Source: Halorhodospira halophila
GTDB lineage: Bacteria; Pseudomonadota; Gammaproteobacteria; Nitrococcales; Halorhodospiraceae
Assembly (NCBI RefSeq): GCF_016653405.1
Contig: NZ_NHSN01000017.1
Location: 186,001-250,000, forward strand
Direction: 5' to 3'
DNA: 64,000 nucleotides
How positions within the stretch are numbered: position 1 is the first letter of the stretch; the number at the start of each line of letters is the position of its first letter. A model generated the notes under the pieces. The model ran no database searches. It saw only the letters and a list, made by a program, of their open reading frames with translations, and had not been told where the DNA came from. This document shows, in pieces, positions 5,179 to 11,708 of the stretch. The position numbers and the translations under genes were made by a program.

Positions 5179-6586
<1,408 letters not shown>

Positions 6587-6594
<8 letters not shown>

Positions 6595-7666
6595 TTTCCG
6601 TCTCCATGGGCAGCCAGATGGTGAACACCGTACGCCCCGGCTCGCTAACGCACTCGATCAGACCACCGAGGCGACTGATCAAGCTCTGGGCGATGGGCAG
6701 GCCCAGGCCCGTGCCCTCGGGGCGCGAGGTGACCATCGGATAGAAGATCTGCTCCTGCTGATCCAGGGGAATCCCCGGTCCGTCGTCGATGATGTCGATG
6801 CGGGCCACCAGGCGGTGGGGCTTGTCGGCGATGGTGAACTGGCGCTGTGTGCGCGTGCGCAGGGTGATGGTGCCACCCGGGCCGGCAGCCTGACGGGCGT
6901 TGCGCACCAGGTTGAGCACCGCCTGGACCAGATGGTTGTGCTCGGCGCTGACCGGCGGGATGCTGGGATCGTAGTCGCGCTCAAGCACAATCGGGCCACC
7001 ATCCTCGCGATTCTCGGCGTCCTCGGCGATGACCAGGGAACGGACGCGCTCGAGGACCTCGTGGATGTTCACCCACTCCGCCCGCGCCGGCGCATTGGGG
7101 CCGAGCAGGGCATCAACCAGCTGCTGCAGGCGGTCGGCCTCGCGGATGATCACCTGCGTATACTCGCGCTGATCGCGCTCGGGCAGCTCCGCCTCGAGCA
7201 GCTGCGCCGCGCCGCGCAGGCCACCGAGCGGATTCTTGATCTCGTGCGCCAGCCCACGTATGAGCTCTTGCACGGCTCGATTCTGCGACAGCAGGTGCTG
7301 CTCGCGCGTGATCCGGGCGTGCCGGTCAACCTCGGCGATCTCGATGAGCACCCGATGCGCCGACAGCGGCGTGATGGTGCAGTCGACGGTCACCGGGTGA
7401 TCGTCGCGCACTGGCAGGCGGCGCTCGCGCTGGGTGTAGGCACCGCCAGTGCGCTGGGTCTGGCGGATGAGTCCCTCGAGCAGCTCCGCACCGCGCAGGG
7501 CCGAGGCAAGGGGCTGGCCCAGCACCTGCCGACTGCTAACCCGGAACAACGTCTCGGCGGCGTGGTTAACGTGGAGGATGCGCACCTGATCATCCACCAA
7601 CAGCACGGCGGTCGTCAGTTCCTCGAGGATCTGCGAGTGGTCGCGCTCTTGTTCGTCCATGTCCAT
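6587..7666 (-). CDS. glnL: Nitrogen regulation sensor kinase NtrB
   Basis: 359 residues. An N-terminal PAS domain (about 12-115) is followed by a histidine-phosphotransfer domain, with the phospho-acceptor H141 in GLAHEIKNPLGG, and a HATPase domain with IIDDGPGIP and the TGLGLPIAQSLI G-box. There are no membrane segments, as expected for soluble NtrB. Two ATGs lie 6 bp apart (7666 and 7660). The second has the better-spaced AGGGA and may be the true start. The gene follows the glnA terminator and the NtrC palindrome, an arrangement like the internal glnL promoter of glnALG. Confidence 0.96.
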
Positions 7667-7823: not shown

Positions 7824-9239
7824 TCAGACGCTGTAGTACATGTCGAACTCCACCGGATGGGTGGTCATGCGCAGACGGGTGACGTCGTCCATCTTGAGGT
7901 CGATGTAGGCGTCGATCAGGTCGTCGGAGAAGACCCCGCCCTGCTTGAGGAACTCCCGATCGTTGTCCAGCGCCTCCAGCGCCTCGTCGAGCTGGAAGGC
8001 GACCTTGGGGATCTCCTTCTCCTCCTCCGGCGGCAGGTCGTAGAGGTCCTTGTCCATCGCCTCGCCGGGGTGGATCTTGTTGCGGATGCCGTCGAGACCG
8101 GCCATCAGCATGGCGGCGAAGGTCAGGTACGGGTTACCGGTGGGATCCGGGAAGCGTACCTCGATACGCCGCGCCTTGGGGTTGGCCACGTAGGGCACCC
8201 GCACCGAAGCGGAGCGGTTGCGCGCCGAGTAGGCGAGCAGCACCGGCGCCTCGAAGCCCGGCACCAGGCGTTTGTAGCTGTTGGTCGAAGCGTTGGCGAA
8301 GGCATTGATCGCCTTGGCGTGCTTGATGATCCCGCCGATGTAGTAAAGCGCCTCCTCAGAGAGACCGCCGTACTGGTCGCCGGCGAAGATGTTGTTACCG
8401 CCCTTGGAAATCGACTGGTGGACGTGCATACCGCTGCCGTTGTCACCCACCAGGGGCTTGGGCATGAAGGTGGCGGTCTTGCCGTAGGCGTGGGCAACGT
8501 TGTGCACGCAGTACTTGAGCGTCTGCAGCTCGTCGGCCTTCTTGACCAGGGTGCGGGCGGCGACACCGATCTCGCACTGCCCGGCGGTGGCCACCTCGTG
8601 GTGGTGGACCTCCGGCTCCAGGCCCATCTCTTCCATGGCCTGGCACATGGCAGCGCGGATGTCGTGCAGCGAGTCCACCGGCGGGACCGGGAAGTAACCG
8701 CCCTTCACGCCGGGGCGGTGGCCGATGTTGCCATCCTTGTAGACCCGCTCGGAGTTCCAACCGGCTTCCTCCGAGTCAATCTTGTAGAAGGTGCCGCTCA
8801 TGTCGGCGCCCCAGCGGACATCGTCGAAGACAAAGAACTCCGGCTCGGGACCGAACAGCGCGGTGTCCCCCAAACCGGTGGAGGCCAAATACGCCTCGGC
8901 GCGCCGGGCCACCGAGCGCGGATCGCGGTCGTAGCCCTGCAAGGTGCTCGGCTCGAGGATGTCGCAGACCAGGTTCAGGGTGGGCTCATCGTAGAAGGGG
9001 TCGAGGGTCGCGGAGTCGGGATCAGGGAGCATGATCATGTCCGACTCCTGGATCCCCTTCCAGCCCTGGATCGAGGAGCCGTCGAACATGGAGCCGTGCT
9101 CGAACAGATCCTCGTCGACCTGGGAGGCGGGCAAGGTCACGTGCATCTCCTTGCCGCGAGTGTCGGTAAAGCGAAGGTCGACGAATTTGACGTCTTCGTC
9201 CTCGATCAGCTTGAGGACATCTTCTCCGGTACGCGCCAT
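7824..9239 (-). CDS. glnA: Glutamine synthetase, type I
   Basis: 471 residues, the usual length for GlnA type I-beta. It makes glutamine from glutamate, ammonia and ATP in a dodecamer. [10 protein letters not shown] (51-60), the [11 protein letters not shown] metal-binding strand (130-140), [10 protein letters not shown] (267-276) and NRSASVRVP are family signatures. Y400 in [10 protein letters not shown] is the expected adenylylation tyrosine, so control by GlnE is likely. An AGAGG ribosome site precedes the ATG. No canonical NtrC operator was found in the 138 bp upstream. Confidence 0.98.
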
Positions 9240-9377: not shown

Positions 9378-9611
9378 TCACGCCCCACCGACCCGGATGC
9401 GGATCCGGTGCTCATCGCCGCTGGGCTCGGTGGCGATGACCTCATGACCGTGGACCCGGCACCAGGCCGGGATGTCCTCGAGGGCACCAGGGTCGGTGAC
9501 CACCACCTCCAGCTCATCGCCGGCGACCAATCGTGCCACCTGGGCCTGGGTGCGGATCACCGGCAGCGGGCAAAGCAGATGGCGGCAGTCGAGCTCGTTA
9601 TCCGTCGCCAT
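9378..9611 (-). CDS. TusA-family sulfur carrier protein
   Basis: 77 residues from the ATG at 9611; a longer in-frame start is inside the upstream gene and unsupported. The TusA/SirA/YeeD fold is marked by LDCRHLLCPLPVIRT, with the CPxP cysteine at C14 and a second cysteine at C9. Family members carry a persulfide on the CPxP cysteine and pass it to partners in tRNA thiolation, molybdenum cofactor or sulfur oxidation pathways. The gene overlaps the end of the MnmA-like gene by 14 bp, which strongly suggests that the two proteins act together. Which TusA subgroup it belongs to cannot be decided from the sequence. Confidence 0.88.
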   Translation of the reverse strand: MATDNELDCRHLLCPLPVIRTQAQVARLVAGDELEVVVTDPGALEDIPAWCRVHGHEVIATEPSGDEHRIRIRVGGA

Positions 9612-10662
9612 GATCGCCTCCCACGTACCACGCGTCGGGAACATTCTCCGGCGCCATCGGAGGCACGGCGAGCGATTGCACGTTGCCCTCGGTATCCTCG
9701 AGTTCCAGATCGACTCGTTCGGCATTCCGCCCGGAAGAGTAACGAGCCACCAACCGTGCCGCCAGCTCCAGGTCGTGCTCGTCCCAGGTGCCGTCGATCA
9801 ACGCCACCGGACCGCCGTGGCTGATCGTGCGCAGGTGCGGATAGCGGCGCTTGTAGCCCTGCAGAAAGCGGGTCTCACCGGCCTCACGGGCGATGATGAG
9901 CTTGAAGTGCTCGCGCGGGCGCAGATGACGGCCCACCTTGAGTAGCATGATGTCGTCCAGGTCGTACTCACGGGAACCGCGCGCCTGCCAAAGATCGGCC
10001 AGCTTGGCCGAGTAGCTGGCATCGGTCAGAAAACAGCAGCCGCCGGCGGGCTGCGCCCAGGCCTCGATGCCCAGGCTGCGCGCCAGCGCGAACTGGGGCT
10101 TGCGCGAGCGGCCATGCAGGTCGTGGAGGCGCTCACGATCCACCCAGCCCTCGCGCTCGGGCCGCGTCGGCTCCAGAAGCTTCGCCGAGAGCGGACGCAG
10201 GAGCAGGTCCTCGACCTCGGCATCCCGGGTGATCACCGGCAGCTTGTCCCGGGTCTGGGACTTGGGCCGCTGGCCGATCACCTCGCCGGTGACGATGAAA
10301 TCGAAGCCGTTGGCCTCGATCCACTCGCGGGCCTTACGCACCATGAACACCTTGCAGTCCAGGCAAGGATTGAGATTAGCGCCGTAGCCGTAGCGGGGGT
10401 TGGTGAGGACCTCCTTGTACTCCTCGATGACATCGACGATGTGTAGCGGCATACCCAGCTGCTCGGCCACCCACAGGGCGTTGTTGCGCTTGGGCCGTTG
10501 CTGATCCTTGCTGCGAATGGCGTGGGTGTGGCCCTCGACGCAGAAGCCGGTGTAGAAATTGATCCCCTCCACGTGGACACCCTGGTCCTGGACCACGCGG
10601 GCGGCCAGCATGGAATCGAGACCCCCGGAGATGAGCGCGACGGCTTTCGGTTGCTCGGGCAT
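9598..10662 (-). CDS. MnmA-like PP-loop protein (predicted nucleic-acid thiolase)
   Basis: 354 residues from the ATG at 10662; a TTG 9 bp upstream is also possible, and neither has a clear ribosome site. An ATP pyrophosphatase PP-loop SGGLDSM (12-18) is followed by NPCLDCK (C100, C103) and AGGCCFLTD (C209, C210). These correspond to the two catalytic-cysteine regions of MnmA. The C-terminal part (about 240-354) differs from MnmA and resembles the small RNA-binding NFACT-R-like domain reported in this subfamily (recalled, not searched). The expected chemistry is ATP-dependent thiolation with sulfur supplied by the overlapping TusA-like protein. It is not the canonical 2-thiouridylase, and its target is unknown. 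Confidence 0.75.
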   Translation of the reverse strand: MPEQPKAVALISGGLDSMLAARVVQDQGVHVEGINFYTGFCVEGHTHAIRSKDQQRPKRNNALWVAEQLGMPLHIVDVIEEYKEVLTNPRYGYGANLNPCLDCKVFMVRKAREWIEANGFDFIVTGEVIGQRPKSQTRDKLPVITRDAEVEDLLLRPLSAKLLEPTRPEREGWVDRERLHDLHGRSRKPQFALARSLGIEAWAQPAGGCCFLTDASYSAKLADLWQARGSREYDLDDIMLLKVGRHLRPREHFKLIIAREAGETRFLQGYKRRYPHLRTISHGGPVALIDGTWDEHDLELAARLVARYSSGRNAERVDLELEDTEGNVQSLAVPPMAPENVPDAWYVGGDHGDG

Positions 10663-10742
10663 GACACGCAACTGTATCGGAGTGGAGGGAGAATTCTACC
10701 AAAACGGTCGTTGAGCCCGTGCAAGTGCCCGGACCGGATCGC

Positions 10743-10748
10743 TATACT
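10743..10748 (+). promoter_or_regulatory. Possible -10 element for glyQS
   Basis: TATACT lies 45 bp before the glyQ start in the divergent gap. No convincing -35 hexamer is found at 16-18 bp spacing. Confidence 0.3.
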
Positions 10749-10793
10749 GCGCCGCTACTGCGCACTGAGCCGACGGGATCAACGGAGGCGAGC

Positions 10794-11700
<907 letters not shown>

Positions 11701-11708
<8 letters not shown>

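Follow-up and report, generated by a model that had tools for sequence, protein, structure and literature searches.

The window, a stretch of 64,000 nucleotides from Halorhodospira halophila, carries a pair of overlapping genes on its minus strand. The larger gene (9598..10662, with an in-frame ATG at 10662 and a stop codon ending at 9598) encodes a protein of 354 residues in which a PP-loop domain is followed by an NFACT-R_2 domain. The smaller (9378..9611, minus strand) encodes a TusA-type sulfur carrier of 77 residues. The coordinates of the two ORFs give an overlap of 14 bp (9598..9611, minus strand), through which their translation may be coupled, and a GGGAGG stretch lies just 5' of the tusA ATG. 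The coordinates, lengths and cysteines reported for the two genes in the first-pass annotation are right. Downstream of tusA and on the same strand are genes for a glutamine synthetase (7824-9239), a PAS histidine kinase (6587-7666) and a response-regulator-like frame, NtrC-like by eye (5179-6594). The gene for the alpha chain of glycyl-tRNA synthetase (10719-11708) is on the plus strand, opposite to the pair.

The pair is not a chance arrangement of open frames, as its products match the Pfam families NFACT-R_2, tRNA_Me_trans, ThiI and TusA. The C-terminal part of the 354-residue protein (residues 244-346, positions 9625..9933 of the minus strand) matches NFACT-R_2 (PF18297), the RNA-binding domain of RqcH/NEMF, over positions 1-104 of the 104 in the model, with an E-value of 2e-32 and 111.9 bits against a cut-off of 26.9. 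The first-pass annotation had described this C-terminus as unlike MnmA, which is correct, but the domain is a known one. The N-terminal catalytic domain (residues ~3-243, positions 9934..10656 of the minus strand), placed by its motifs and by VIA structural matches, is recognised about equally well by tRNA_Me_trans, the HUP domain of MnmA (1.4e-11), and by ThiI (1.5e-11). Its motifs are SGGLDS (residues 12-17), NPCLDC (98-103), TGEVIGQRPKSQ (125-136), RPL (156-158) and GGCCF (207-211), and the cysteines of the protein are C41, C100, C103, C209 and C210. The NCBIfam models for MnmA and ThiI score 28-46 bits, far below their cut-offs; the ThiI equivalog TIGR00342 reaches 42 bits (cut-off 264.5) and the MnmA equivalog TIGR00420 reaches 40.1 bits (cut-off 236.95). 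A Pfam search at E up to 1 found no THUMP domain, the PP-loop domain being the one that opens the protein, and matched none of the other domain models of MnmA.

In the databases the protein is closest to one from an Ectothiorhodospiraceae MAG, at 93% identity; among named species, Halorhodospira neutriphila comes nearest, at 77%. Conservation was assessed by aligning the window protein with 108 of the 111 sequences collected, 109 in all; L156 and L189 (partial) and L158 (a duplicate of the window) were omitted, and nine members from genome contigs had been hand-picked from 80. Unchanged in all 109 are C100, D102, C103, G126, E127, G130, S135 and Q136, together with R156-L158, G207, G208 and C210, while C41, C209 and Q131 are each kept in 106.

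An AlphaFold2 model of the 354-residue protein, built from the 109 sequences, has a mean pLDDT of 90.7 and a pTM of 0.86. Its PP-loop domain superimposes on ThiI in the ThiI-RNA complex 4kr6_A with a VIA Z-score of 14.9 (164 residues, rmsd 2.4, 29% identity) and on ThiI 2c5s with a Z-score of 13.9. The corresponding value for MnmA 2deu_A is 12.7 (172 residues, rmsd 2.8, 23% identity) and that for LarE 13.6; YcfA of Erwinia ties with ThiI at 14.6, with 16% identity. The order by Foldseek E-value is different, with MnmA first (2hma, 9e-8) and ThiI ninth (2c5s, 8e-7), a ranking that favours the MnmA-like label given to the protein by the first-pass annotation. The C-terminal domain of the model fits RqcH 8s1u_H with a Z-score of 14.0 (104 residues, rmsd 2.2, 16% identity), and also fits the bacterial RQC complex 7aqc_R (Z-score 11.7) and CCDC25. 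Its fold is thus common to the NFACT-R domains of RqcH/NEMF (8s1u_H, 7aqc_R, 5h3w) and to CCDC25, whereas the window protein differs from RqcH/NEMF in that its NFACT-R_2 domain is fused to a domain resembling a PP-loop thiolase.

The motifs of the catalytic domain can be followed into both families. With ThiI the window protein has in common SGGxDS, an ATP loop of the TG[E/D]..GQ..SQ type, RPL and a late CC pair. The loop, which is one residue longer here than in ThiI, has as its counterparts TGESLGQVASQ in B. anthracis ThiI and, in the ThiI proteins encoded by two genomes from the order of the window, TGDSLGQVASQ and SGDSLGQVASQ; at the places matching the loop and NPCLDC, the MnmA of the genome itself has TGHYARL and NPDILC. 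The C209-C210 pair is placed, by eye, like the DCC of the two sister ThiI proteins, the catalytic cysteine of ThiI being of the Cys344 type and placed on a loop of the active site. Neither of these two proteins contains a C..C motif, so the chemistry may differ from that of ThiI. In T. maritima ThiI, according to PMC4041423, a loop at the dimer interface that includes Gly286, Glu287, Gln291 and Gln295 contacts ATP, and we take this loop, judging from the spacing, as the counterpart of the SQ-type loop. ThiI (TIGR00342; 4kr6, 2c5s) differs in having an NFLD-THUMP module, instead of which the window protein has NFACT-R_2, and the window protein also has an added CxxC.

The cysteines lead towards MnmA. 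In E. coli MnmA the NPDILC cysteine, taken by us to be C102 of the catalytic pair C102 and C199, aligns with C103 within a significant stretch, and the GICF cysteine aligns with C210 in a sub-threshold stretch only. The PP-loop domain and, apparently, the NPxxxC and GxCF cysteines are common to the window protein and to MnmA/TrmU (TIGR00420; PDB 2der), from which it differs in having an SQ loop instead of TGH and in matching no MnmA C-terminal domains. TtuA and the cluster-bearing LarE are also among the structural matches to the PP-loop domain, and the CxxC plus C arrangement presumably resembles that of the [4Fe-4S] PP-loop sulfur transferases TtuA and TtcA; the RNA-binding part of the window protein is different from those of TtuA, TtcA and LarE. 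A CxxC is also a feature of the C-type MnmA described in PMC11784392. The catalytic domain is a mix of an MnmA-type cysteine set and a ThiI-type ATP loop. The label MnmA-like thus holds for the pattern of cysteines, and for the Foldseek ranking, but the SQ-type loop, the RPL, the CC pair and the better VIA Z-score are those of ThiI.

The product of the smaller gene matches PF01206 with an E-value of 7.3e-24 and 83.9 bits against a cut-off of 28.6, and carries the motifs CPLP (residues 14-17, with C14) and DIPAWC (with C51). It falls short of the TusA equivalog PRK00299, at 46.5 bits against a cut-off of 78. In a set of 79 TusA sequences, made up of 77 gene-linked proteins and that of the window counted twice, C14 is present in all and C51 in 92%. 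The genome of the window encodes one further TusA, with F and S in the positions that W50 and C51 occupy in the gene-linked type. We take the window TusA as a dedicated carrier for the PP-loop enzyme, to which it would pass sulfur directly.

The linkage of the two genes was followed across loci, counting a TusA domain as adjacent if it is encoded by the same strand and starts between -60 and +300 nt from the stop codon of the PP-loop gene. A TusA is found directly 3' of the PP-loop gene in 76 of the 80 nearest relatives, in 56 of 70 loci from the class and in 21 of 31 further loci. These counts omit L096 (from G030), a fragment of 60 residues of NFACT-R_2 with a stop and without a PP-loop relative. 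The class loci lacking an adjacent TusA number 14, of which three (L105, L115 and L156) are at contig ends, within 350 nt, so that TusA was not found within 300 nt in 11 class loci with room for it, nor in 10 further loci. Among the latter, a TusA lies beyond the limit at 302 nt in one and at 663-798 nt in three. In Halorhodospira abdelmalekii (L010) the sole TusA found in the stretch is 3.6 kb from the PP-loop gene. The arrangement differs from that of ThiI, as no TusA was found beside the ThiI genes of G161 and G144 in the stretches around them (L192, L193).

The genes flanking the pair differ between groups. In 99 loci whose neighbours were grouped (70 from the class and 29 from outside it, L156 and L189 being omitted), GlnA lies close by at 44 of the 70 class loci and at none of the 29 others, and ALAD at one of 70 and 26 of 29, respectively. 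The PP-loop protein, TusA and a cation-efflux protein are the only groups recurring in at least two loci of both sets, in a count that sets aside frames overlapping or opposite the genes for these three. From the 19 matches in the order, the neighbours examined were those in G000, G143, G147, G152, G163 and G170. The cation-efflux gene (PF01545; for example, L086:4684-5838) accompanies the module, in the same orientation, at 38 of the 70 class loci and at five of 29 outside, mostly right after TusA; in the window, tusA (9378) and glnA (9239) lie too close together to accommodate it. It is possibly a third partner or a relic of old synteny.

The assembly to which the window belongs (2.86 Mb in 45 contigs, 99.86% complete) was searched for the known thiolation enzymes. 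A full canonical MnmA is encoded at G000:C18:100428-101492, with 382 bits. The presence of a separate mnmA had been put forward in the first-pass annotation as a check on its idea of a two-gene sulfur module apart from canonical MnmA; that idea stands, the linkage to TusA being kept despite the differing surroundings, and the 354-residue protein is rejected as the canonical MnmA of its own genome. The TIGR00342 search of the genome matched only the PP-loop–NFACT-R_2 protein, below the cut-off as given above, so ThiI is absent by this search, and TtcA gave no match either.

The distribution of the module and of ThiI was compared in three samples that share some genomes (Fisher tests are one-sided and their p values ignore relatedness). 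In the class sample of 143 genomes, each of a different family, NFACT-R_2 is found in 72, ThiI over the cut-off in nine, both in none and neither in 62 (p 0.0014). In the order, 19 of 54 genomes have NFACT-R_2, 13 have ThiI, none has both and 22 have neither (p 0.0013). In the phylum sample of 397, with at most four candidates per genome scored for ThiI, the figures are 36, 120, zero and 241, respectively (p 1e-6). By genus within the order the test is weak (p 0.02, 17 genera). NFACT-R_2 can be read as the module in the class and phylum samples: besides that of the window, 70 of the 71 class matches lie in relatives of the PP-loop protein and one is a broken fragment, and all 31 phylum matches outside the class sample lie in such relatives. 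Swaps between the two are also seen among close relatives. The family of the window has the module in genera g1 (9/9) and g145 (2/2) and ThiI in g144 (one genome). Within family f144, the module occurs in one genus (G143) and ThiI in two (G144-G146); the module copy of G143 appears to be split over two frames, one of 313 residues and one of 99 residues with the PP-loop start. These close-range swaps weigh more than the Fisher p values.

Other thiolation enzymes served as controls. In the order, TtcA is over the cut-off in eight of 19 module genomes and in 15 of the 35 others, an odds ratio of 0.97, and MnmA passes its cut-off in 53 of the 54 genomes, including all 19 with the module. Genera g1 and g145, that of the window and its sister, have TtcA over the cut-off in none of their 11 genomes, compared with 23 of 54 in the whole order. 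PF18297 also matches seven or eight of 14 control genomes, several of which have ThiI matches too (Bacillus subtilis, Thermus, Deinobacterium, Thermotoga, Lactococcus, Haloferax and Sulfolobus); we suppose the PF18297 matches to be proteins of the RqcH/NEMF type. For this reason we confine the claim of exclusion to the phylum sampled.

The simplest reading of this distribution is that the module replaces ThiI. We consider it quite likely that the PP-loop–NFACT-R_2 protein and its TusA together form a non-orthologous replacement of ThiI that makes s4U8 in tRNA, the larger protein being probably the tRNA U8 4-thiouridine synthetase. The target is suggested to be U8 because the module and ThiI never occur together in the sampled genomes, and this exclusion points to the known target of ThiI. 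The first-pass annotation had proposed a target different from that of canonical MnmA; that this would be a new thiolation is not supported. The product, the role of NFACT-R_2 and the chemistry of the cysteines would then be as follows. Persulfide sulfur from a cysteine desulfurase would pass to the small TusA and from it to the large PP-loop protein. NFACT-R_2 would bind the tRNA, taking the role of the NFLD-THUMP module of ThiI, which measures from the CCA end to U8 (PMC4041423). The PP-loop domain would adenylate uridine 8 with ATP, and sulfur held at the C100/C103/C210 site would displace AMP to leave 4-thiouridine. Adenylation of the uridine followed by attack of sulfur is the mechanism outlined for MnmA and ThiI in PMC11784392. 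The sulfur could be held as a persulfide on C210, with C103 assisting, or could be bound as an extra sulfur by a [4Fe-4S] cluster with C100, C103 and C210 as ligands; the same choice between iron-sulfur and persulfide chemistry is also disputed for E. coli MnmA itself (PMC11784392). A more specific version is put forward tentatively, and we think it rather less likely to be right than wrong: that the module is a second, independent route to s4U8, in which an iron-sulfur (CxxC plus C) PP-loop thiolase finds its tRNA by a domain shared with RqcH/NEMF, rather than by the CCA-ruler of THUMP, and is supplied with sulfur directly by its own TusA, with neither the TusBCD-TusE chain nor a rhodanese domain in between.

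Several other functions have been considered. That the module, as proposed in the first-pass annotation, is dedicated to thiolating some other or novel site in RNA, or another substrate, its avoidance of ThiI being coincidental, is unlikely, although its RNA-binding domain is unlike that of ThiI or MnmA and its invariant CxxC is absent from the two sister ThiI proteins examined. As many genomes have neither system, the exclusion could partly be clade history. Set against this are the zero overlap with ThiI in three samples, including swaps between genera within a family, the lack of any such exclusion with TtcA and MnmA, and the ThiI-type ATP loop. The TtcA control bears equally on whether the module makes 2-thiocytidine at position 32 in place of TtcA. 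The invariant CxxC plus C would suit such an enzyme, as TtcA binds a [4Fe-4S] cluster (PMC11784392), and TtcA gives no match in the genome of the window and is over the cut-off in none of the 11 module genomes of g1 and g145. With TtcA present alongside the module in eight of 19 genomes of the order, however, and five genomes of g155 having ThiI but no TtcA over the cut-off, this was rejected as the main reading and appears very improbable.

We regard as similarly improbable a second MnmA, one that makes 2-thiouridine at U34 in a subset of tRNAs or only in certain conditions. It would account for the cysteines that align with those of E. coli MnmA, for the MnmA structures at the top of the Foldseek ranking, and for the TusA, which is the first carrier of the E. 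coli MnmA relay (PMC11784392). It has to contend with a canonical MnmA in all 19 module genomes of the order, with a ThiI-type loop where MnmA has TGH, and with MnmA's other domain models, none of which is matched at E up to 1. A function shared with ThiI in thiamine synthesis, by way of a rhodanese domain, was also rejected, since no rhodanese domain appears in the Pfam listing of the protein; the two ThiI proteins examined from the same order (open frames of 436 and 445 residues) look too short to have one themselves.

Replacement of ThiI, the reading we prefer, appears to have been anticipated. Burroughs and Aravind (RNA Biology 2014) are said to have predicted, from domain architecture and gene neighbourhood, that proteins with an NFACT-R-type domain act with TusA-like proteins in a new pathway of tRNA 4-thiouridylation. 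The window pair fits such a pathway, with NFACT-R fused to a ThiI-type PP-loop domain and TusA as a neighbour, and the window gene joins this already predicted family. A search of the open-access literature found no experimental test of the family as a thiolase. What is added here is the exclusion of ThiI with its TtcA control, the swaps at close range and the survey of cysteines, any of which may have been reported before. In passages of PMC11784392 and PMC4041423, s4U8 is credited to ThiI alone, and a genome without ThiI is therefore easily taken as one without s4U. If the pair does make s4U8, an s4U pathway exists in roughly half of the families sampled from the class (71 of 143 genomes, one per family, have a protein of this type) and in a group outside it, one that differs in its sulfur carrier, in its means of tRNA recognition and perhaps in its sulfur chemistry. 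This would also have a bearing on the dispute over iron-sulfur and persulfide thiolation that PMC11784392 describes for MnmA.

The 62 of 143 class genomes with neither ThiI over the cut-off nor NFACT-R_2 may have no s4U8 or may have a third system. The fragment left out of the linkage counts (L096; G030:C1:280563-280727) has an internal stop, has no PP-loop relative alongside and comes from a genome of 1.4 Mb; it is perhaps the remnant of a lost module.
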